Origin: Ignavibacteria bacterium
Lineage (GTDB): Bacteria > Bacteroidota > Ignavibacteria > Kapaibacteriales > Kapaibacteriaceae
Direction: 5' to 3'
NCBI GenBank assembly: GCA_016191145.1
Contig: JACPPD010000003.1
Location: 186,001-250,000 of the forward strand
Length of the DNA stretch: 64,000 nt
The position numbers and the translations under genes were made by a program. Under the pieces are notes generated by a model that saw only the letters and a list, made by a program, of their open reading frames with translations, was not told the DNA's origin and ran no database searches. Below are positions 23,524 through 60,704 of the stretch, one piece after another. How positions within the stretch are numbered: the first letter of the stretch is position 1; each line of letters begins with the position of its first letter.

Positions 23524-23580
23524 CGGGAGAAACGCCGGGAGAAACGCCGGGAGAAACGCCGGGAGAAACGCCGGGAGAAA
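23524..23580 (+). repeat. 12-bp minisatellite, about 4.75 copies, non-coding
   Basis: The unit CGGGAGAAACGC is repeated head to tail without mismatch: four full copies and a nine-base partial. It lies one base after the DUF1460 stop codon. The same unit recurs in the same orientation at 23901-23949. Confidence 0.95.
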
Positions 23581-23676: not shown

Positions 23677-23961
23677 ATGAACCGAAATACACTGCTGATT
23701 AAACAATTCATCTCATCCTGGGTTTATTACTCAGGCGCCCTGTACATCTCAGATGTATTGTTCCAATACGTGTTAACTCCAGGCGGCGCATACCATCGCG
23801 AATGGTGGTCGCCTCTGATTGGTGGATTCGTGGTGGCACTTTCTGAGCGAGCATTTACTGTGTATAACACATGGATTGATCGCAACAAGGCAGTGACATC
23901 GAAACGCCGGGAGAAACGCCGGGAGAAACGCCGGGAGAAACGCCGGGCGTTGTTTAGCTAG
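23677..23961 (+). CDS. Small membrane-associated protein with a KRRE repeat tail
   Basis: A 94-residue protein of unknown function. It has two moderately hydrophobic segments (FISSWVYYSGALYISDVLF and SPLIGGFVVALSERAF) and ends in four K-R-R-E repeats plus RRALFS. The tail is encoded by the 12-bp minisatellite, so copy number changes alter its length without shifting the frame. The ATG at 23677 is used; one four bases upstream is in another frame. I am not certain the gene is real: the support is an open frame, a sensible hydrophobic pattern and the lack of a competing frame. Confidence 0.5.
   Translation: MNRNTLLIKQFISSWVYYSGALYISDVLFQYVLTPGGAYHREWWSPLIGGFVVALSERAFTVYNTWIDRNKAVTSKRREKRREKRREKRRALFS
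23901..23949 (+). repeat. 12-bp minisatellite, about four copies, inside a coding frame
   Basis: The unit is the same as at 23524-23580 (CGGGAGAAACGC): three full copies flanked by partial ones, in the same orientation about 330 bp downstream. It is translated as repeated Lys-Arg-Arg-Glu. Confidence 0.93.
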
Positions 23962-31095: not shown

Positions 31096-32135
31096 AGCGC
31101 TATACCGACAACTGCAGTAATTGAATCGGGAAGAACCACTGAATTCTTCCGCATATCGCCATATTCACTTAAAACATCAATAGATTTACCATCCGGATAT
31201 ACGCAAATCAATTCAGCCCGTGCAGCATCGTACACTGCCAATCCATAATTAATGAACTGCACAGCGGCAGCTCGATTTCTCTGGGCATTGGGGGCGCGAA
31301 GCAGGCCCGACTGTACCGGTGTAAACGAAAAGCCGCTGGCGTTAACGGCCAAACTTTTGACGATTTGTTGAGGGCCTTCCGAGGCCCGTGCAGTCAGGTC
31401 GATTGTCTTGAGGATCGACCGATCCGCAATTTCGATAAACGTCATCGTTGGAGTACTGGGGGGTTGTTCGTCGGATGGAAGTTTTCCTGCGCCAAGCGCG
31501 ACGACGACGAAGACGCCCACCAGTCCGTCTGCCCCAACAAAGTATGGCGCCTGAGTTGGTATGGAAAGAGTTGCTTCGATGGAGTTTGTGCGTGAATCGA
31601 GGACAACAGCCTGGTTTAGTTTGGGAAGAGCTGCGCAGAGCTGGTTTCCCGCTACAGCTATGCCGGCAGCCACATCAGGCAGTGGTATCGTCGATGCAAG
31701 AACGAAGGTGGTAAGGTCCACGATACCAATGTTCGCCGACGCGGCAAATGTAACGTATGCCGTCGAGGCATTGGCAAATGCGATATCGACTGCAGGTCCA
31801 TAAGTGCCAAGATCAACTGTATCAAGAATTGCGAGTGTTTTTTTGTCGAGGACGATAATCCACGGCTGTTGAACAGCAAGTGCAAACAACTGATCTCGAA
31901 ACGGTTTGATAGCAGAAATTGGATATAATTCAGCTGAAGAATCATTTCGCCAAACCGAAGGATTCAGAAGCTCGCCAGTGGGCATCGAGTAAGACGAAAG
32001 GCCTCGTGCATCGGCCACAACAAAGCGCCATTTGTCATTAAAAGAATTGATGACGGGATTGCTCGGCGTGCAGCTCGACAAAGCGGCAGCGACAAGAAAT
32101 AAAATATAGTTATAATATCTCAACAATTTTTCCAA
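31092..32135 (-). CDS. Lipoprotein with predicted beta-propeller (YncE-like)
   Basis: A 347-residue protein with a lipoprotein signal (YNYILFLVAAALSSC, Cys22). The body repeats segments such as ALFALAVQQPWIIVLDKKTL, NIGIVDLTTFVLASTIPL and AVVLDSRTNSIEATLSIP, the pattern of YncE/cytochrome-D1-like propeller blades. Start TTG 32135 lies inside the end of the upstream PNP gene. No binding partner is evident; it may report on or bind a periplasmic ligand. Confidence 0.72.
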   Translation of the reverse strand: MEKLLRYYNYILFLVAAALSSCTPSNPVINSFNDKWRFVVADARGLSSYSMPTGELLNPSVWRNDSSAELYPISAIKPFRDQLFALAVQQPWIIVLDKKTLAILDTVDLGTYGPAVDIAFANASTAYVTFAASANIGIVDLTTFVLASTIPLPDVAAGIAVAGNQLCAALPKLNQAVVLDSRTNSIEATLSIPTQAPYFVGADGLVGVFVVVALGAGKLPSDEQPPSTPTMTFIEIADRSILKTIDLTARASEGPQQIVKSLAVNASGFSFTPVQSGLLRAPNAQRNRAAAVQFINYGLAVYDAARAELICVYPDGKSIDVLSEYGDMRKNSVVLPDSITAVVGIAL

Positions 32136-32928
32136 TCAAGGATGTCATCAAAGGTTCAGCCATTCTTGCTGCAGCAATTACATCTTCAAGATACAAGGGT
32201 TTTAAAGAATCAGGACTGCATTCGTCTGTTATGATGCTGATCCCAAGCACTTCCATACCCATGTGACGTGCAACAATTGTTTCCGGAACCGTACTCATTC
32301 CCACAACATCGGCGCCAATCAGCCTGAGGAGACGATATTCGGCGCGAGTTTCGATAGACGGACCTATAACTGCCGCATAGACTCCTCGATGGACATTCAG
32401 TTGCATCGACATCGCAATCTCTTCAGCCAGGGAAAGCAATCGCTGCGAATAAGGCTCGCTCATGTCGGGGAATCTTGGTCCAAAACGTTCATCATTAACA
32501 CCGATGAGCGGATTATCGCCTAACAAATTGATATAATCGTCGATCAGCATCAGTTCACCGGATTTAAACAAGGGGTTAATGGATCCGCATGCATTAGTAA
32601 CAATCAGCGTTTTAACGCCAAGAGCTTTCATCACGCGCACCGGGAACGTGACTTGCTTAAGCGAGAATCCTTCGTACTTGTGGAATCGCCCTTGCATGAT
32701 GGCAACATTGCGTCCACCCACTACTCCCATCACAAGTCTGCCTTCATGCGATTCCACTGTACTGACAGGGAAGCCTGGTACAGCGGAGTAGGGTATGGTA
32801 AGGGGCTTATCCAGTGTGGAAGCTAATGCTCCGAGGCCTGTACCGAGAACGATTCCGACTTCCGGCTGATCCTTGGTTACTAACCCGATACTACGTGCTG
32901 CATCCTGAACTAATTCGTATTCACTCAT
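32110..32928 (-). CDS. Purine nucleoside phosphorylase, trimeric (PNP I) type
   Basis: A 272-residue enzyme that splits inosine or guanosine with phosphate into base and ribose-1-phosphate. Motifs are GIVLGTGLG, HEGRLVMGVVGGRNVAIMQG then RFHKYEG, TNACGSINPLFKSGELMLID and GPSIETRAEYRLLRLIGADV then VGMSTVPE, all matching trimeric PNP. It is first in a three-gene minus-strand operon with the propeller lipoprotein and the PTA-like enzyme, with overlapping ends. Confidence 0.95.
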   Translation of the reverse strand: MSEYELVQDAARSIGLVTKDQPEVGIVLGTGLGALASTLDKPLTIPYSAVPGFPVSTVESHEGRLVMGVVGGRNVAIMQGRFHKYEGFSLKQVTFPVRVMKALGVKTLIVTNACGSINPLFKSGELMLIDDYINLLGDNPLIGVNDERFGPRFPDMSEPYSQRLLSLAEEIAMSMQLNVHRGVYAAVIGPSIETRAEYRLLRLIGADVVGMSTVPETIVARHMGMEVLGISIITDECSPDSLKPLYLEDVIAAARMAEPLMTSLIGKIVEIL

Positions 32929-33154
32929 AGGATTTTAATCGAGACAAAAAATCAACAGCGGACCATGTTAAACGATCTGTGTTTACACAATCAAATGCTT
33001 CTCAAAATTTTCTATACTTACATCGTAACGCATTGACCTGCAAAATGTCGTTGTGTGTTGGGACGCAGAAAACCCAGTCCCAGAATTTCGAAAACACCCT
33101 GGTTCCAAATTAGCGCTGTTCTATGAACAGTTCATTGCGCAAGACGCTTGCTGA

Positions 33155-33194
33155 ACCACCATGCCGGGTATCTCTTGATACCCGGCATGGTGGT
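33155..33194. repeat. Perfect 18-bp-arm palindrome, left of the exported giant
   Basis: ACCACCATGCCGGGTATC, loop TCTT, then the exact reverse complement. The inner 16-bp arms are shared with 38899-38940, which has loop AAGA, as if inverted. It resembles a REP-like element. Confidence 0.95.
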
Positions 33195-33204
33195 GGATTC
33201 CAGA

Positions 33205-33235
33205 TTTCGCAGGGCTGGGGTATTTCGTATTTTTG
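33205..33235 (+). promoter_or_regulatory. Candidate Bacteroidota-type promoter for the exported giant
   Basis: A -7 element TATTTTTG at 33228-33235 fits the TAnnTTTG consensus exactly. A -33-like TTTC at 33205-33208 (consensus TTTG, three of four) stands 19 bp upstream, the usual spacing. Transcription would start about 48 bp before the ATG. Confidence 0.45.
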
Positions 33236-33289
33236 CAGACATTACACTCGATACAAAATCATTTACACAACTTCCCACAAGGAAACGGT

Positions 33290-36200
33290 ATGAGCCGTTC
33301 ACTACGCCGTTCGCTGTTGATTTCAATAGCGGTAATATTCTCATTCTTTTTAACCCCTCGAGAGGCTGAGTCCCAGATCTTCTATAACATCGGCGGCGGA
33401 CCAGGCTCTACGAATTATTGGGACTATGTAGATATCTACAACCCTCTAACTGATTGGTATTACACAACCAAGAACCAGTGGTATGTGCGTGCATCTGACT
33501 TGCAATATTATGGGATGACTCCAGGGCAAATCACATCGCTTGCATTTACCATCCAGCAGAACACCTACGTTTTTCCTCAGCGCGATGTGTTCATAAAAAT
33601 CAAAGCCACAACACAGACAACCTTTGCTCCACCGATGACGAATAATATGGTTGGAGCAACAACAGTCTATCAGGCAACGGGATGGAACGTGCCCATTATT
33701 TCATATAACGCAAATGGTACGTATTACACATTCAATTTTCAGACGCCATTCATGTGGGATGGAACCAGCAACCTGATTTTTGAATTTTGCTCATCGCGGA
33801 CTGGATACACATACAGTGCCCCCTACACTCTTATCTCGTACAGTTCCGCATATCCCAGATTGCTCTACCACTGGCAGGATACCTACGGTATTTGCAACAC
33901 TGCAACGGGGTACGGTACCTACTACTATCGGCCAAACATGAGACTCGGTGTTCTGTCTGGCATTGAGCAGTCCTTCCCCGATGAAGTGGATCCGCGGCGA
34001 ATCCTCCGCGCAGGCGCTGTGTACGATGGTTCTTCTGCAACTAATCCTCGCCCATCGCTTTCGTTCCGCCAAACAAATGGACAAAACATTACACTCACAT
34101 ATAAAATTCTGGGACCATATCCAAGTACTAACGTTATTTATGAAGCCCGCAAAAGCGGCAACCCGAGTATTCTGCATACGGCTTCTAACACATCCCTCTA
34201 CACGTATGAATTCACCGAGGCTGTTGGTCCAGCAGCAGGTCCTGGCGGAGAACTGGATCTGACGAATATTGGAGGGGGCTCGTACCGCGTCGAAGCTACC
34301 TTCTCAATCCCCGGCTACAGCCAGAACTGGTCGAAGAACTTCATTATCGCCTTCGACAACGATTTGGCTTTAAGTACAGTTCGATCGCCCCTTGCCATGC
34401 CTAAAAAGTATCCCCGCGGAGTAAACACGCCTGTGTCAGTAGCGATTCAGAACGTTGGTCTCAACAATGTAACCAGTGCATTTGCCACTGCAACCATCAG
34501 AAGAAAATCCGACCAGCAGTTAGTTTATAGCGACAATGTTCTGTGGACTGGAAATCTTGCTACAGGTGAGTCTGCAACCATAGACTTCAAGCCATTTAAT
34601 ACACTTGAAGTCACGCAGTGGGATTTGCAGGTCTGTGCGGAACTGCAGGGAGCATTCGATCAGCAATCGTCCAATGATTGCCTGCCGCGCCCTGGAGAAA
34701 CGCATACGTTCCAAACACTGTACAACCAGGAAGTAGGAGCGTTTTCTATTGGCAGGCCAGTTGGGACAGGAACATACTATGCTCAGCGCCCTTTCCGACC
34801 GTCAGCGAATATCATCAACAGCGGAATGCTCGACCTCACGGATATTCCAGTTCGGATGGAAATCTTCAAGCTTCCTGCACGCACAAAAGTGTATGACGAG
34901 CTTGTTGTTTTCCCCGACGTTGGTGCCGATCCTCCGAACAACATTGCTAGCTCTGAGTTTCCTCCGTTTACACCTGATGTAGGAGGCCAGTATGAAGCCT
35001 GCATGACGGTGGAATATCCCGGCGACCCAATTCTCACCAACAACACAGTTTGCCAAACATTTACCGTTGGCAGTAATCTCAGCGGAACGTACACAATTGG
35101 CACTCTGAAAGCGGGACAGGCTCGTAACTACAACACGGTTCAGGATGCCGTCGACGACCTTTACCGAAAGGGAATTTCCGCTCCGGTAAATTTTGAATTC
35201 ACCGACGCTACCTACTCCGTGGGAAGCATTTCAGTTAACGCTCCGGCGCTCGACCTTACTACAACAATTATCGGCACCAGCGCTACAAACATCATTACCT
35301 TCAAGCCATCGCTGGAGCGTTCGCTCAGCAAGGGCAGTGTGGTGGTGACGCTGAACTCCGGCAAGGGCGTCGGCATCTTGCTGGGTCAGGCACTGACGGC
35401 CGCCAACCCGTATGCAGTACAGCTCGAATTCAGTAAGGATCCGAAGTGGTCGAACTTCAGCGGATACATCACCTTTGATGGCGGTCAGCAGAAGTCGCTG
35501 GTGTTCCAGCTCAATGCTACCACGCCGCATCGTGCTCCATTTTATTTGGGCGATGGTACGCACGACGTGGCCATTCGCAACAGCATTATTCGAAACGCCC
35601 CAGGCGCAGTTCCTTCCTATGCTACCTCACTGCCGAAGATCATTTACGGCTTCAACCTGTTCCAGTACGAGCAGGATGTGCGCCAGGTTGGGTCGACAAT
35701 CTATACATACAGCGCTGGATGCGTAAGCCGACAAAAGATTCCAACTGGCCAAAGCGGCAACAACGCCGAACGTATTGATACGATAATCGGCAAAGACAAT
35801 GATATTATCGGCAACGAGATCTCGGGCTTCGGTTACGGGATCGCGACGATGGGTATCGGCATGGCCATCAAGGGAGGCGTTAATGTATTCATGCCGTATT
35901 ACAGTCAGGGTACGGAAATCCGTCAGAACCTTATCTATGGAGTGCGGGGTTCGGGGATTTTTGTTGCCTACGAAGATGGCGCACAGATCACGGGCAACCG
36001 TATCCACACCGTAGGGAGCGTAGCCACTGGAGGAACCGGTGTCTGGGCTGCGGGGATTACGGCTGGCGGCGTAGAGCGCTACCACAACATTAACCTGACG
36101 GTGAGCTCCAACGAGATCTCAGGCGTAACGGGCGACGTATGGTCGCGTGGCATCGTCGTCGAGCAAGTGGAGAACACCTTCCCGTCGGTTGGTCAGTCTG

Positions 36201-38803
36201 GACTGAATGTGAAGTTCCCGCAGGTGGCAGAATCCACTACGGTGAAGAACAATGTTGTCTGGGGAATCCGGCGCGCGTCGGCCACCGCCGGCTCGGCAGG
36301 GATTCACATGCTCACGCAGCGTGATGCTGCGAAAACCGGGATAGCGTATGTAACGACGCCAACTCCGAGTCACCTCGACTACTTTACCCAAGGAGACCGT
36401 GTGGTAAACAACACGGTGATGATGCAGAACGACAACACGTCGGGTAGCAACCTTGTGTGCGGCATCGGCATCCAGCATGGCAACGGGACCGTGGTGAAGA
36501 ACAACGCCGTGATGATGCTGGGCGGTGCCTCGACTTCGAGCTACGGCCAGGCAGCCTTGTTTTATCAGGGTATCCAGATGACGGACGACGCCGACCCGAT
36601 GGCCCTTTTGTCTGACCGTAATGCGTATGAGCTAGGTGCGGCCTCGCTGGCGCGCTTCGTCGAGATTACAAAGACTTCGGAAACCGTCTCCAACGGCGCT
36701 GCCGACGAGTTTCTAACGCTGGCGCAGTGGCGTGCCTGGACGCAGCGCGACGTCAACTCGGTGTCAGGAGATCTCTCGTCAATGCACCAGTTTACGGGCA
36801 TCGCCCCGAATCAGAATCTGCGTGTCAAAACCAACCCGCTGCCGATTGGTTCGGTGTTGAACAATCGCGGCGAAACTATCGCCGGAGTGACGACGGACAT
36901 CGATGGTAAAGCTCGTGGCGCCTCTGGGCAGTTGATCGACATTGGCGCAAATGAATTCGATGGGCGCGTATACATAAAAGACTATGAAGCAATTACGATT
37001 CTAGACCCTGCAGCCTACCGTTCCTCTACTGGAGCAGCGTCGGATGCCGAGTACATCATGACGTCGGCGCCAGTCAACGTCATCGGCTTGGTGCGCAACT
37101 CCGGCGGACTGGCGCAGTCGAACATCGACGTCACCGTACGTGTCTATCGCGAGACGACTTCGTCGAACAACGCTGGCCTTAGCACACCACAGTTCGAGAC
37201 AGCGCCTGTGGTGGCCAAGACGGTCAAAGTTTCGATCGATGCCGGTGCAGAGTCAGCCGTGAATTTTGCGCTGACGAATCTGACACCTCAGACCTATACT
37301 CAGGCAGTCTCCTACATAGTGCCGCAGCGTTTTTCAGCGATGCAGCAGAACGTGACGATGCGCTACCGCATCGAAGTGACGACGGCCTACGACGAGAACA
37401 ACACCAACAACTCTACGTCGAAGATTGTTCGTTTCTTCCTGGTGCGTTCTGTTCCGCGGATCCTTGTTTCAGGCGTCAATGCAACGATAGCACCGGCCAG
37501 CGGAACGGCTACACAGACGGCTGGACGTTTGAACTTTGACTCACTGACAGTGGGTCTGCGTCGGCTGGGTCTGGACAACACCAGTGGGACGCTGTACTAC
37601 GACGTGCTCGACCGCGAAGCCTTCGAGCAGCGCGCAGTAAACTATGAGCTGTATCGGACACTGTTCTGGAGCGGTAATCAGGATGCCCTGACGCGCTTCG
37701 AGCGACGGGACCTGCGGCAGTATCTGTCCTCGGGTAGTCAGATCGAGAAGAAAAACCTGGCAGTTGGTTCGCAGGAGTATCCGCGCCGCCACATTGGCAA
37801 AGATGTGATCAACGACGAGAGCTTCGTCAACACTGTTCTTCGCGTGCAAAACCAAGCACCGGGAACGCCCGTGCCGACCACGGCCAATTACTCGGGTAAG
37901 CGAGTGCGCGGTAATGCCATCGCCCGCAACAGCCTTGAGACGGTGACGGCCACAACGACGGCCGGCGACGCTGTACCCAACCCGGCGCTGGTTAAACCAT
38001 ATTCGGATCCGACGACTCCAGGATTGGCGCTGCCAGCCTACATCTACGTATTAGGTGACCGTGAAAGCGTGGACTCCGTCGGCGGTGCCGCCTCTGCCTC
38101 GCTGCTGCACAACACTGTGTACATCGGCGTTGACTGGAGGCACTGGAAGAACCTTGGTGTGAAGACAGGCACCGACCGTGTATTGCGCGGGATCATCGAC
38201 TTCTTTGAGAGTAACGGCGGCTCCGTAGTGCCTGTGGAGCTAATGCGCTTCGACGCACGGGCGCGGGGTAATAACGTCGACGTTTCCTGGACGACTGCAT
38301 CTGAGAACGGCGTAGACCACTTCGAAGTCGAGCGCGCTGACGTAATTACGGGCAACAACAGCTTCTTCAGCACTCTGGGAACAGTGACGGCCCAAGGCAC
38401 AACCACGCAGACCACCGACTACGGCTTCAAAGATGCGGGCGTAGCGGCGGGACGCTACCTCTACCGTTTGACAACTGTTGACGCCGACGGCAGTCGCGAC
38501 GCGACTGGAGCTATCGAAGTCGATGTCGTTGGCGCCGACGCTTCATTTAGCATCGAGCGCGTGACGCCACAGCCAGCTTCAACAGAAGCTACGCTGGTGG
38601 TACAGGTGCCCAAGGCATCACAGGTGCGCATTGAAATCGTCAACACCTTAGGCGAGCTCGCCGCCGTAGCCTTCGATGGCATGCTGGCGGTGGGTCTACA
38701 GCCAGTGAAGGTCGACGTCGGCAGTCTCCCAGCAGGAGCCTATACCTTGGTATTAACCTCAGCCGACGGGACGGTAACGAAGCAGATTGCCGTGCGACGG
38801 TAA
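33290..38803 (+). CDS. Giant exported beta-helix protein with type IX secretion-type C-terminal domain
   Basis: A 1,837-residue secreted or surface protein. A Sec signal peptide (LLISIAVIFSFFLTPREAES) is followed by a tyrosine-rich domain, then Ig-like modules (for example NIINSGMLDLTDIPVRMEIF and TNNTVCQTFTVG). A long region of N-x-I/V repeats, such as DNDIIGNEISGFGYGI and NLIYGVRGSGIFVAYEDGAQ, is typical of right-handed parallel beta-helices. Next comes a VELMRFDARARGNNVDVSWT domain ahead of a final 80-residue sorting domain (FSIERVTPQPASTEA up to GAYTLVLTSADG). That ending directs export by the type IX system. The ATG at 33290 has AAGGAAAC upstream. By eye, the 3' two thirds are richer in G/C at third positions than the first 2 kb. 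Flanked by matching palindromes. Confidence 0.88.
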   Translation: MSRSLRRSLLISIAVIFSFFLTPREAESQIFYNIGGGPGSTNYWDYVDIYNPLTDWYYTTKNQWYVRASDLQYYGMTPGQITSLAFTIQQNTYVFPQRDVFIKIKATTQTTFAPPMTNNMVGATTVYQATGWNVPIISYNANGTYYTFNFQTPFMWDGTSNLIFEFCSSRTGYTYSAPYTLISYSSAYPRLLYHWQDTYGICNTATGYGTYYYRPNMRLGVLSGIEQSFPDEVDPRRILRAGAVYDGSSATNPRPSLSFRQTNGQNITLTYKILGPYPSTNVIYEARKSGNPSILHTASNTSLYTYEFTEAVGPAAGPGGELDLTNIGGGSYRVEATFSIPGYSQNWSKNFIIAFDNDLALSTVRSPLAMPKKYPRGVNTPVSVAIQNVGLNNVTSAFATATIRRKSDQQLVYSDNVLWTGNLATGESATIDFKPFNTLEVTQWDLQVCAELQGAFDQQSSNDCLPRPGETHTFQTLYNQEVGAFSIGRPVGTGTYYAQRPFRPSANIINSGMLDLTDIPVRMEIFKLPARTKVYDELVVFPDVGADPPNNIASSEFPPFTPDVGGQYEACMTVEYPGDPILTNNTVCQTFTVGSNLSGTYTIGTLKAGQARNYNTVQDAVDDLYRKGISAPVNFEFTDATYSVGSISVNAPALDLTTTIIGTSATNIITFKPSLERSLSKGSVVVTLNSGKGVGILLGQALTAANPYAVQLEFSKDPKWSNFSGYITFDGGQQKSLVFQLNATTPHRAPFYLGDGTHDVAIRNSIIRNAPGAVPSYATSLPKIIYGFNLFQYEQDVRQVGSTIYTYSAGCVSRQKIPTGQSGNNAERIDTIIGKDNDIIGNEISGFGYGIATMGIGMAIKGGVNVFMPYYSQGTEIRQNLIYGVRGSGIFVAYEDGAQITGNRIHTVGSVATGGTGVWAAGITAGGVERYHNINLTVSSNEISGVTGDVWSRGIVVEQVENTFPSVGQSGLNVKFPQVAESTTVKNNVVWGIRRASATAGSAGIHMLTQRDAAKTGIAYVTTPTPSHLDYFTQGDRVVNNTVMMQNDNTSGSNLVCGIGIQHGNGTVVKNNAVMMLGGASTSSYGQAALFYQGIQMTDDADPMALLSDRNAYELGAASLARFVEITKTSETVSNGAADEFLTLAQWRAWTQRDVNSVSGDLSSMHQFTGIAPNQNLRVKTNPLPIGSVLNNRGETIAGVTTDIDGKARGASGQLIDIGANEFDGRVYIKDYEAITILDPAAYRSSTGAASDAEYIMTSAPVNVIGLVRNSGGLAQSNIDVTVRVYRETTSSNNAGLSTPQFETAPVVAKTVKVSIDAGAESAVNFALTNLTPQTYTQAVSYIVPQRFSAMQQNVTMRYRIEVTTAYDENNTNNSTSKIVRFFLVRSVPRILVSGVNATIAPASGTATQTAGRLNFDSLTVGLRRLGLDNTSGTLYYDVLDREAFEQRAVNYELYRTLFWSGNQDALTRFERRDLRQYLSSGSQIEKKNLAVGSQEYPRRHIGKDVINDESFVNTVLRVQNQAPGTPVPTTANYSGKRVRGNAIARNSLETVTATTTAGDAVPNPALVKPYSDPTTPGLALPAYIYVLGDRESVDSVGGAASASLLHNTVYIGVDWRHWKNLGVKTGTDRVLRGIIDFFESNGGSVVPVELMRFDARARGNNVDVSWTTASENGVDHFEVERADVITGNNSFFSTLGTVTAQGTTTQTTDYGFKDAGVAAGRYLYRLTTVDADGSRDATGAIEVDVVGADASFSIERVTPQPASTEATLVVQVPKASQVRIEIVNTLGELAAVAFDGMLAVGLQPVKVDVGSLPAGAYTLVLTSADGTVTKQIAVRR

Positions 38804-38814
38804 CAATGAATTCC

Positions 38815-38832
38815 GGGGTCAGCTGAGACCCC
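38815..38832 (+). other. Short hairpin after the giant gene
   Basis: GGGGTC, loop AGCTGA, GACCCC, about ten bases past the stop and ahead of the main terminator. It may stabilise the mRNA 3' end. Confidence 0.4.
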
Positions 38833-38848
38833 AGTGTGGTAACATCAC

Positions 38849-38885
38849 AAAAAACGCCTGGCTGGAGTGCCGGGCGTTTTTTTTT
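38849..38885 (+). terminator. Rho-independent terminator of the exported giant
   Basis: Arms AACGCCTGGC and GCCGGGCGTT pair over 10 bp with one G-U pair, loop TGGAGT, flanked by an A-run before and nine T after. The A-run means it may also work for the convergent trhO transcript. Confidence 0.9.
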
Positions 38886-38898
38886 CACCGTGTACTCG

Positions 38899-38940
38899 AA
38901 GCACCATGCCGGGTATCAAGAGATACCCGGCATGGTGCTT
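38899..38940. repeat. Perfect 19-bp-arm palindrome, right of the exported giant
   Basis: AAGCACCATGCCGGGTATC, loop AAGA, then the exact reverse complement. Inner arms match the left palindrome at 33155-33194; the loop is the reverse complement of the left loop TCTT. Confidence 0.95.
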
Positions 38941-38973
38941 GGCTAGGTTGTGGATTATTTGTTTGCGTTCATT

Positions 38974-39894
38974 TTACCCAACCAGCGACTCACGCCGACG
39001 TGCCGAGATACATTCCGCCGAACACGAGCGCTGCATTCTCTCCTCACAGTCGGCACAGACTAAATGCTGTCGGTGGCAGTCGAGATTAGCGCAGTTCACG
39101 TAGCGTTCTGTTGGAGCACTGCAGTGGTAACATTTCCCAACAATGCGCTTGTTGCCGGCTCTGTTGATCTCAATAGAAATACGTTCGTCGAAGACGTAAC
39201 ATCGCCCGTCCCATAAACTTCCTCGTGCTGCTTCATCGCTGCCATAGGTAACTATTCCACCATGAAGCTGATAAACATCCGTGAACCCTTCTGCTATCAT
39301 AAATGATGTTAGCTTCTCGCACCTAATCCCGCCAGTGCAGTAGGTGACAATTTTTCGGGTCTTGTACTTGCTCAATTCCTGCCGTATCCATTCGGGGAAT
39401 TCGCGGAAGCTGGATACCGGAGGCCTCAGCGCTCCTCTGAAATGTCCAAGGTCGTATTCGTAATCTGTGCGACCATCAATTACAATAGCCTCGCCGCTTT
39501 CAAGAAGCGTTAGGAAATCTGTAGGTTCAACGTACTGTCCGCGTTTGCGTTGTATGTGCCCCTTTCCATTGACATGTGATGGGACTGCATCGTCTGCTCT
39601 AAAGGTGACAAGCTCGCGTTTAACTCGTACCGAAAGCTTTTGAAAAACATGGTTTTCAACGCGATCGATTTTGAATTCAATATTGCTGAAACGTTTATCT
39701 GAACGAACAACTTCGATGTATTCTTTGCAACTCTCCTGCCTTCCAGAAACAGTTCCGTTGATTCCTTCATGCGAAACAAGAATTCGTCCAAGCAATCCTA
39801 ATGATGAACATAACTTCCGATGTTCTTCTGCAAAAACTTCAGGAGTATCGATCCAGGTAAAATAATAGTATAACAAGACGTTATAGTCAGTCAT
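38974..39894 (-). CDS. trhO: tRNA uridine(34) hydroxylase TrhO (rhodanese domain)
   Basis: A 306-residue YceA/TrhO protein that hydroxylates U34 of certain tRNAs. The N-terminal UPF0176 domain (LGRILVSHEGINGTVSG) precedes a rhodanese domain with the catalytic loop CTGGIRCEK (Cys186). The tail has several cysteines (KCYHCSAPTE, CANLDCHRQHLVCADC) that probably bind zinc. It diverges from the TPR gene across only 25 bp, so any promoters there must overlap. Confidence 0.93.
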   Translation of the reverse strand: MTDYNVLLYYYFTWIDTPEVFAEEHRKLCSSLGLLGRILVSHEGINGTVSGRQESCKEYIEVVRSDKRFSNIEFKIDRVENHVFQKLSVRVKRELVTFRADDAVPSHVNGKGHIQRKRGQYVEPTDFLTLLESGEAIVIDGRTDYEYDLGHFRGALRPPVSSFREFPEWIRQELSKYKTRKIVTYCTGGIRCEKLTSFMIAEGFTDVYQLHGGIVTYGSDEAARGSLWDGRCYVFDERISIEINRAGNKRIVGKCYHCSAPTERYVNCANLDCHRQHLVCADCEERMQRSCSAECISARRRESLVG

Positions 39895-39919
39895 CGTGCA
39901 AAACTAAGGTAACGGCATC

Positions 39920-42900
39920 GTGCGAGTCTTTGTAGCTTTGCAACGCAGCATTTTCGAGGTAAGACGGTTGTTCCGACACACCAAACGGTGGCTACTCTCC
40001 GTCGGTGCTTTCGCGGCATTGTATACCGCACACCTGTCGGCGCAGATAGTTCCCCATCCATACGTCACCATATCTTCACAGGAGCGATCTGCAGTATTCC
40101 TGATTGAAGGGGGCATGGTACGCCGCGCCCATCAGTTACTGCGCGATGTTCAGGAAAGTGAAAGACTCACCGTCGCGTCGGACGCAGTTACTTTCAGAAA
40201 ATCAGAAACACTTCGCCGATCGGGCAATACAGCCGCTGCAAACCGTATGCTGGCTGATTTTCAACGCCTCCGTACTAACAGTCCAGCAGTACCCACCGCA
40301 AGCTTCGAACGTGGATTGGCAGCTCTGGAGGAAGGTAACGACAGCGCCGCATCGGACAATCTGAATGTTGCCGCGCAATTGAGCAGACGTGAATTTGAAG
40401 TGCGCGCAGACAGCATCTACGTTGCAATGGAACATGCAGCCCGATTCTGGCAGGGGGCGTCGCTGGCACGCTCGGGACACCATGCCGATGCAATCATCAC
40501 TTTTCAGCAAAGTGTTACCGCTGATAGCCTTGGGATGTACAGCGCTGAAGCTTTGTATGCAATTGGACAGGTATATGAACGTAATCAGGAATATGATAAA
40601 TCAATTGAGTATTTCAATAAGGTGCGTGTAGTATATCCGCAGTCGGCAGTTTCACGTCAGGCGCAGATCCGCGAAGCGCAGAACTACATCAGCATTCGCA
40701 AACCGCAACGAGCGCTCGATGTGCTGGCCGATATTGAATCGGACGATGTTGTAAAACTGTTGCGCGCATCGGCATTGATTCAACACGGGCGATATGATCT
40801 GGGGCTCGATACTGTCGGTAAAATTTTTACTTCACAAAACGCCTCGGGCGCCATCATTACAAGCGCCTATCTGCACGCCGGATATGCAGAGCTGCATCTG
40901 GGAAAATTTGAAAGCGCTATCGGACATCTTCGGTACGTTATCGACTCAACAGTTGGGAGCACTTCACCCGAACGGCAGCAAGCGTTGCTTTATCACGCAA
41001 TTGCACTGAAACGAAATGGATCGGCGCAGGAAGCAGAAAGAATTTTCGCCGACCTCGCCGCTCAGGCGGATTATCCGTTTCAGTCGCAAGCATTAGTCGA
41101 AGTCGGTCAGGGGGCCTATGAACGCGGGGAATTTACCGATGCACAAAAAGCATTTGAGCGCGCAGAGAGATCTGCAACCGATCCCAACACACTGATACGC
41201 GCACGATTACTGCTTGGCGCAACACTGATTGAACGACAGTTGTGGGCTAAGGCCGCGCAGACTTATGAGAGAGCTGAAGCACTTGCCCTAACTGCCACAG
41301 ACGCTTATGTGCCAAACAAGGATAGGTTCCTTGCCGAAGCGCGATTGAAAAAAGGTATCTGTCTGGTGCAGGCAAACGATAGAAGAGGAAGTATCACTGC
41401 GCTGACGGAATTTTTGGGTAACCACCCCAACCATCCGCAGCGCGATGAAGCAACGTTTTGGCTTGCAGAGGCCATGTATCGGGCCGACTTATTAAAAAAT
41501 GCAAGTGAACTGTACGACGAAATTGTAAAAAATTATACCGTCAGCATCCGTCGTGAAGAAGCGATGTATGGCCTGGCATGGACGTATTTCCGACGCAGGG
41601 ACTTCAAGCGTTCCGTTGATGCGTTCGGCAACCTTGTAAAGTCGTTCCCAACATCGAAATATGCAGTCGAAGCCATGGTGCGCCGCGGCGATGGTCTATA
41701 CGTTACCAAGCAATTCCAGGCTGCCGCGCAGCAGTACATACAGGCTGCCCGAAAGAGTCCTCGCTCAGAAGAAGGTCAGTATGCCGGGTTCCAGGCGGGG
41801 CACGCGCTCTATCGTGCAGGGGCTCTGGAGCAAGCGTCATCGCAACTGCGCGACTTTGTGGCGTCGAACTCATCAAGTAAGCTTGCCGACGATGCATTGT
41901 TTCTGATTGGCTGGATTGAATTCCAACAGCAAAATGATGCGGGTGCAATTGTTGAATTCAACAAGCTATTGGCTGCATACCCGGAAGGTGATCAGGCTGT
42001 GAGAGCGTTGTACACGATTGCTGATGCACAGTACAATCTTGGCAACATAGACGATGCACTGAACACATACCGCTTAGTGATTGCTCGCTTCCCTGCCCAT
42101 CCACTTGCGGCGGAATCGGCAAAGAGCATGCAGATTGCGTTGATTGGAATGGGGCGAACCGATGAAGCGCTGCAGATAGCCGACTCGCTTATCTCCATCA
42201 ATCCAAACTCAGTTGTTGCCGAAGAATTTGCTTTTAAAAAGGCAGAGATTTTTTACACGGGTCGCAATTATCCCAGTGCCGTTGCCGAGCTGGAGGCATA
42301 CATCAATAAATATCCATCGTCTAAGCGAAATGACGAAGTGCTCTACCTCCTCGGGAAAACGTATTTGAGCATGGACGATGTAAAAAATGCAACACAATCT
42401 TTTGTCGAACTCGAAAAACAGCATCCTGAAAGCCCCCTAATTTCACCTTCGTTGTTAGAGCTTGCCACATATTACGATGGACATGCTAATTCGGCAATGG
42501 CAGATTCGCTCTATGGGTCTGTGATGCAGCGCCACGCCGACGACACATCAAGCGCGTCGCGAGCCGGCTTTGAGCGTGCAACCTTGGCTAAGGCACGGGG
42601 AGATTCACTGAAGGCACTAGAGTTGTATAACAGCACGGCAAATCGGTATGCCGGAACAGAATATGGCGATCAGTCTCGTTACCAGATTGCCATGTATTAT
42701 AGAAAGTTATCAAATACCGATTCGGCAGTGTATCATTTGAGCATTCTGTCTCAGAGCTCCACAAATCCTCTCATTGTAGCCAATGCTCTGTATGATATTG
42801 GAGACATTTATCAGCGGAACAGGCGCTGGACTTCTGCCGCCGAAGCCTTTGAACGCGTCAGAAGAGATTATGCTGGTTACGAAGATTGGTACACGCTCAG

Positions 42901-43051
42901 CCTGCTCGGTTTGGGTAACAGCTACGAGCAGCTCGAGCGGTTCGACGATGCACGGTCTGCCTACCTGGTTGTGCGTGAGCTCAGGCCCGATGATGATTAC
43001 GGCAAAACAGCAACATCACGTCTCGATCGTCTCGAAAGGCGTCGCCCATGA
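39920..43051 (+). CDS. Exported TPR-repeat protein
   Basis: A 1,043-residue protein made almost wholly of tetratricopeptide-type helical pairs: SAEALYAIGQVYERNQEYDK, KSIEYFNKVRVVYPQS, EEAMYGLAWTYFRRRDFKRS and SLLGLGNSYEQLERFDDARS. A signal-peptide-like start (RWLLSVGAFAALYTAHLSAQ) places it in the periplasm or outer membrane. The GTG at 39920 is the longest start; TTG codons near 39938 and 39966 are alternatives. It overlaps the next gene by four bases (ATGA). Such scaffolds often link outer-membrane and TonB/SPOR partners, and those types follow here. Confidence 0.85.
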   Translation: MRVFVALQRSIFEVRRLFRHTKRWLLSVGAFAALYTAHLSAQIVPHPYVTISSQERSAVFLIEGGMVRRAHQLLRDVQESERLTVASDAVTFRKSETLRRSGNTAAANRMLADFQRLRTNSPAVPTASFERGLAALEEGNDSAASDNLNVAAQLSRREFEVRADSIYVAMEHAARFWQGASLARSGHHADAIITFQQSVTADSLGMYSAEALYAIGQVYERNQEYDKSIEYFNKVRVVYPQSAVSRQAQIREAQNYISIRKPQRALDVLADIESDDVVKLLRASALIQHGRYDLGLDTVGKIFTSQNASGAIITSAYLHAGYAELHLGKFESAIGHLRYVIDSTVGSTSPERQQALLYHAIALKRNGSAQEAERIFADLAAQADYPFQSQALVEVGQGAYERGEFTDAQKAFERAERSATDPNTLIRARLLLGATLIERQLWAKAAQTYERAEALALTATDAYVPNKDRFLAEARLKKGICLVQANDRRGSITALTEFLGNHPNHPQRDEATFWLAEAMYRADLLKNASELYDEIVKNYTVSIRREEAMYGLAWTYFRRRDFKRSVDAFGNLVKSFPTSKYAVEAMVRRGDGLYVTKQFQAAAQQYIQAARKSPRSEEGQYAGFQAGHALYRAGALEQASSQLRDFVASNSSSKLADDALFLIGWIEFQQQNDAGAIVEFNKLLAAYPEGDQAVRALYTIADAQYNLGNIDDALNTYRLVIARFPAHPLAAESAKSMQIALIGMGRTDEALQIADSLISINPNSVVAEEFAFKKAEIFYTGRNYPSAVAELEAYINKYPSSKRNDEVLYLLGKTYLSMDDVKNATQSFVELEKQHPESPLISPSLLELATYYDGHANSAMADSLYGSVMQRHADDTSSASRAGFERATLAKARGDSLKALELYNSTANRYAGTEYGDQSRYQIAMYYRKLSNTDSAVYHLSILSQSSTNPLIVANALYDIGDIYQRNRRWTSAAEAFERVRRDYAGYEDWYTLSLLGLGNSYEQLERFDDARSAYLVVRELRPDDDYGKTATSRLDRLERRRP

Positions 43052-60617: not shown

Positions 60618-60704
60618 ATGCCGGGAGGCATATGCTGCCGGGGAACATGCCGGGAGGCATATGCTGCCGGGGAACATGCCGGGAGGCATATGCTGCCGGG
60701 GAAG
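60618..60704. repeat. 29-bp tandem repeat, three copies
   Basis: The unit is ATGCCGGGAGGCATATGCTG plus CCGGGGAAC, repeated head to tail, with only the last two bases of copy three changed. Each unit contains the palindrome GCATATGC between two GCCGGG blocks, so the array can fold into hairpins. Confidence 0.95.

Follow-up and report, generated by a model that had tools for sequence, protein, structure and literature searches.

Do two matching palindromes that stand in opposite orientation on either side of a single giant gene mark the ends of a mobile unit, or are they members of a repeat family that extends far beyond this gene? This question is raised by the window analysed here, a stretch of 64,000 nucleotides from an Ignavibacteria bacterium (contig JACPPD010000003.1, positions 186,001 to 250,000), for which a sequence-only reading had proposed a cassette, mobile or recombining, for proteins of type IX secretion (T9SS). 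Based on copy counts in the genome and on comparison with a sister species, we conclude that the palindromes are dispersed REP-like members and not the ends of a mobile unit, and that many of them occupy old common places, where their loops would probably have been overwritten by ectopic gene conversion.

Palindromes around the giant gene

The structural part of the sequence-only reading was reproduced. Palindrome 1 (33155–33194, + strand) has perfect 18-bp arms (33155–33172 and 33177–33194) separated by the 4-nt loop TCTT, and palindrome 2 (38899–38940, − strand) has perfect 19-bp arms (38899–38917 and 38922–38940) with the loop read as AAGA on the + strand. Since these loops are reverse-complementary, both sites represent one element in opposite orientations. 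They are the two longest short-distance inverted repeats within the window. The 16-mer common to all arms, CACCATGCCGGGTATC, has four mismatch-free occurrences, which are the four arms themselves; if up to two mismatches are allowed it occurs 5 times (the fifth with two mismatches), versus 0.02 expected from shuffling. Very stable hairpins are predicted for both palindromes at the DNA level (folding z-scores of −9.4 and −10.9), and the predicted RNA hairpin is also very stable (−38 kcal/mol). In the Rfam search of the window tRNA was the sole match, and the palindromes matched no known RNA family.

The segment between the palindromes likewise contains, as had been described, a single large ORF followed by a terminator-like hairpin. 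The ORF (33290–38803, + strand, with ATG at 33290 and the stop at 38803) encodes a giant exported protein (1837 aa) that ends in a T9SS type A sorting domain (TIGR04183, 30.6 bits at a cut-off of 23). The hairpin, with a T run behind it (38849–38882, + strand), has no relation to the palindromes. The neighbours on both sides are transcribed from the − strand: a purine-nucleoside phosphorylase gene upstream (32110–32928) and a gene for a TrhO-like tRNA uridine(34) hydroxylase downstream (38974–39894). Two genes 3' of the giant gene there is a TPR protein (39920–43051) with a sub-threshold match to PorW/SprE, a T9SS component.

The sister species is represented by MAG SW_29 (JAGVJW01), which is 80% complete and split into about 300 contigs, several of them ending near palindromes, so that its hairpin count is a lower bound. 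Window positions 32624–41902 align with SW_29 as a single collinear block in the same orientation and with 83% identity. Palindrome 1 is missing from the orthologous place (the stretches differ by 38 bp), with the gene start, the terminator and the neighbours all being present, and the place of palindrome 2 is taken by a palindrome with a CCGTA loop. Since the gene keeps its place and orientation where palindrome 1 is missing, it is a vertically inherited bystander, and palindrome 1 was gained or lost independently. Inversion of the whole gene, which the palindromes had been suggested to support, has no support; between the species only the 4-nt loop is turned round, and this at two other sites (L051/L295 and L077/L296). 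In another genome of the genus (G004, C1, about 1.122–1.144 Mb) four matches to the giant sorting-domain gene, evenly spaced at 6–6.5 kb, were registered, which suggests tandem amplification.

A dispersed family of palindromes

A search with the pattern GCCGGGTATC-NNNN-GATACCCGGC at no more than 2 mismatches returned 57 copies in the 2.47-Mb genome, and the backwards control returned 0; with the loop fixed as AAGA/TCTT and no more than one mismatch, 56 copies were found, 51 of them exact. The copies group into 46 clusters, which fall into 17 gaps between tandem genes, 12 between convergent and 12 between divergent ones, with 5 being nominally within ORFs; 41 of 46 are thus intergenic according to a crude gene caller. 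The end of a gene is found 10–30 bp from many copies. Twelve close dimers have start-to-start spacings of either 45–46 bp (8) or 55–57 bp (4), i.e. of two classes that differ by about one helical turn, and 10 of the 12 are inverted (nine TCTT..AAGA and one AAGA..TCTT, the other two being direct). What is constant in the family is the 28-bp core ATGCCGGGTATC-TCTT-GATACCCGGCAT with a perfect 12-bp core stem, outside of which conservation of the feet is loose (AYCAYS and its complement). Except at one position, covariation between the outer arms did not exceed that obtained by shuffling, and the 18–19 bp arms seen in the window therefore consist of the 12-bp core, partly conserved feet and chance pairing. 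Minority loops are represented in this genome by one CCGTG copy (L069:7428) and by a decayed CCGTA copy beside L049:4143. Another decayed copy (L086, position 4412) has a 3-nt loop and falls within a predicted coding ORF.

In the GTDB species collection the core pattern was found in 61 stretches, 6 of them from SW_29 and nearly all others being single matches in unrelated bacteria, so that no further genome with many copies is listed in this collection. Of the 60 relatives covered by the search, SW_29 alone has the exact core. A link to phages was considered and rejected, as the core pattern matched 3 times in 2.9 million viral contigs.

A mobile or invertible cassette bounded by both palindromes draws its support from the two nearest copies, which are mutually inverted and enclose one sorting-domain gene. 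The 57 copies are, however, scattered over the genome. When the C-terminal ~110 residues were inspected for TIGR04183 in 86 genes adjoining palindromes and in 148 other genes of the same regions, the domain was found in 6 and 6 of them, respectively (Fisher p = 0.37), i.e. without enrichment. No gene of a REP-associated tyrosine transposase (RAYT) was found flanked by this palindrome, the genome having three. Together with the collinear SW_29 ortholog of the same orientation and without palindrome 1, which already contradicts it, this makes the existence of such a cassette hardly conceivable. Scattered, mostly intergenic palindromes with no link to sorting-domain genes are just the outcome that the sequence-only reading had itself named as contrary to its proposal. 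The REP-like part of its interpretation is retained, as the copies are numerous, lie mostly between genes and form close inverted dimers in a genome that has RAYT genes, and the part concerning a T9SS cassette has to be abandoned. As a general caution, genomic copies should be counted before matching palindromes around a gene are taken for the ends of a cassette.

Loop types at orthologous places

In SW_29, 31 hairpins match GGGTATCN{2,5}ATACCC; the loop is TCTT in six of them, CCGTA or CCGTG in 22 and another variant in three. The contigs carrying these hairpins were aligned to the loci of our genome, and 25 hairpins were found at orthologous places occupied in both species. In 20 of the 25 cases the loop type is different (TCTT here, mostly CCGTA/CCGTG in SW_29), with stems, flanks and some dimer spacers being kept. 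Mean identity of the 60-bp flanks at the 25 common hairpins is 70% versus 33% in mispaired controls, with low similarity on one side at several sites. In the three regions that were searched irrespective of palindromes and are present in SW_29 (the window, L063 and L066), SW_29 has a copy at six of seven clusters and an empty site at one; both states of an orthologous site, as looked for in an active MITE-like element, were thus observed, 33155–33194 being filled here and empty in SW_29. The DNA search for the L054 ortholog in SW_29 gave hairpin matches only, and the two clusters of this locus were left out of the comparison.

The clearest cases are the single hairpins L061/L291 and L063:6740/L221, which have a changed loop and conserved flanks, and two dimers. 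The dimer L059/L276 differs between the species in each of its loops and has largely retained its spacer; the dimer L055/L275, likewise with a retained spacer, has one loop changed and the other the same, so that the two loop types of SW_29 occur side by side. The same type in both species was registered at five sites (L051, the second copy of L055, L065, L071 and L077), which is about the chance number given the loop frequencies of each genome, and the ancestry of a site therefore says little about its loop. At two of these sites (L051/L295 and L077/L296) the loop orientation is opposite between the species, as would be expected if a self-complementary stem could meet its donor in either direction. 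L052 and L063 differ between the species in being single or dimeric, which means that insertion or deletion acts too.

That the places are common and the loops genome-specific means that loops have passed from one copy to another in one of the lineages or in both. As judged from aligned sequences, 20 loop differences at 25 hairpins point to a genome-wide replacement in place, for which ectopic gene conversion is the most likely mechanism, and mostly stationary repeats with central loops swapped throughout the genome may be regarded as a sign of concerted evolution. In the simplest account hairpin copies would pair with non-allelic donors, conversion being confined to the hairpin and perhaps aided by single-stranded hairpins at replication forks. 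Overwritten loops would drive each genome toward one loop type, and whole copies, like that at 33155–33194, would occasionally be gained or lost. Dispersed sequences of ~30–40 bp are short for RecA-type recombination, which counts against conversion, as does possible assembly error at hairpins in the fragmented SW_29. The lack of an outgroup with the family, the single/dimer differences at L052 and L063 and the poor one-sided flank similarity at several sites also weigh against it.

Short-read assembly of SW_29 (or of our genome) might by itself have homogenised the loops of dispersed hairpins, and the fragmentation of SW_29, with some contigs ending near palindromes, is in line with this. However, the core is far below typical read length, so that each copy is anchored by its flanks, and our genome is assembled in only 19 contigs. 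Moreover, SW_29 has two loop types and point variants, and both types once meet in one dimer (L275), which argues against wholesale collapse. An artefact of this kind is therefore very improbable. Alternatively, the hairpins may be functional, serving RNA stability, termination or protein binding, and be kept by selection, with loops changed in parallel after a change in the recognising protein. Stems intact in most copies, the high predicted stability of the RNA (−38 kcal/mol), the short distance of many copies from a gene end (10–30 bp), the places common to both species and dimer spacings that differ by about one helical turn all fit this explanation. Nevertheless, the transition from CTCTTG to CCGTA would require several substitutions and a change in length at each of about 20 sites, gaps between divergent genes also hold copies (12 of 46 clusters), one site is empty in SW_29, and the core palindrome is absent from the other members of the genus that were searched. 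Parallel selection of loops is thus improbable.

Apart from general ectopic conversion, one can imagine a dedicated process of hairpin homing, or loop conversion, that overwrites the loops of REP-like hairpins genome-wide without moving them, for instance if the single-stranded hairpin of one copy served as a template for others at the replication fork. We regard it as a tentative and rather doubtful possibility. No report of loop swaps at conserved places was found in a limited literature search.

Relation to REP systems and their transposases

REPs, BIMEs, REPINs and RAYTs have long been described (PMC3116915, PMC2817692, PMC3733652), and the palindrome family is best described as REP-like: palindromes of 20–40 bp that are multi-copy, extragenic and arranged in close inverted dimers correspond to REPs in the broad sense. 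With the REP/BIME/REPIN and RAYT systems of E. coli, Pseudomonas and Stenotrophomonas (PMC3116915, PMC2817692, PMC3686654) it has in common short palindromes that number in the dozens and lie mostly between genes, inverted doublets set close together at fixed distances, restriction to a lineage and RAYT genes in the genome. It differs from them by a perfect 12-bp core stem without a GTAG-type foot, by RAYT genes none of which was found flanked by the palindrome, and by loops changed in place at orthologous sites.

Three proteins of our genome score above the NF047646 cut-off for RAYTs; in the assembled part of SW_29 the only match is partial and IS200-like. The RAYT motifs NHFH and YIHLNP correspond to subclass 2.1, which is listed without REP structures (PMC6006769). 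No palindrome of this family was found around the RAYT loci examined, and a GTAG or GTGG foot occurs in 0 of 94 hairpin feet, as does a CGTC, TGTC or CCTC foot. Since neither an adjoining RAYT nor a GTAG, GTGG or CGTC foot is found, the palindromes are not part of a classical REPtron, despite their REP-family look and arrangement. One of the RAYT genes (L016; G000 C3, about 10.4–11.3 kb) has arrays of a 29-bp repeat (ATGCCGGGAGGCATATGC...) on both sides, and this repeat, not the palindrome, may therefore be the RAYT cognate. Three tandem copies of the 29-bp unit ATGCCGGGAGGCATATGCTGCCGGGGAAC occupy window positions 60618–60703. This is one of many such arrays here and in SW_29, an 18-mer of the unit giving 65 matches in our genome and 27 in SW_29, and the unit and the palindrome family have the ATGCCGGG start in common. 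A third, CCGGG-cored repeat forms perfect 12-bp tandem arrays CGGGAGAAACGC (window 23524–23580 and 23901–23947), and the motif of these arrays is also found in a hairpin with 23-bp arms (L086, 7170–7220).

In the case of classical RAYT-driven REPIN transposition the copies would move or re-insert, so that a new loop type inserts at or near an old copy and the dimer then collapses. Three RAYT proteins, close inverted dimers and one empty site of ~38–40 bp are compatible with such a process, and re-insertion with collapse could explain the single/dimer differences at L052 and L063. It leaves unexplained, however, those dimers in which loops have changed but the spacer has not; besides, a GTAG or CGTC foot was found in none of 94 cases, no RAYT was found beside the palindromes and the RAYT motifs resemble a subclass listed without REPs. 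We consider this transposition unlikely and give preference to conversion at stationary copies. A pair of species with 20 hairpins that are alike in place and stem and have another loop makes the choice between conversion and re-insertion directly testable.

CGTC-tagged REPs, reported from Bacteroidetes and Chlorobi too (PMC3733652), are similar to our family in having AT pairs at the start of the stem, inverted dimers, loops 4 or 5 nt long and no dedicated transposase, and the loops TCTT (4 nt) and CCGTA (5 nt) with the core stem ATGCCGGGTATC agree with their loop and stem type. The stem here is nevertheless longer (12 bp versus 8–9), and symmetric CAYS feet replace CGTC and the CCA tail. The title of Higgins et al. 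1988, known from its citation, already proposes that REPs evolve by gene conversion. Homogenisation of a genome's dispersed palindromes by conversion would be common to that proposal and to our case, whereas our pattern emerges from comparing two species at individual sites. In the REP “orthoswitch” a lineage changes its REP class and related lineages keep another, new copies multiplying and old ones decaying, by a molecular mechanism that its authors call only a matter of speculation (PMC3686654). A lineage-specific change of class is seen in both systems, but here it is the old places that carry the new loop. If hairpin homing does operate, a repeat family would change its identity in place, and this would provide a mechanism for the orthoswitch.
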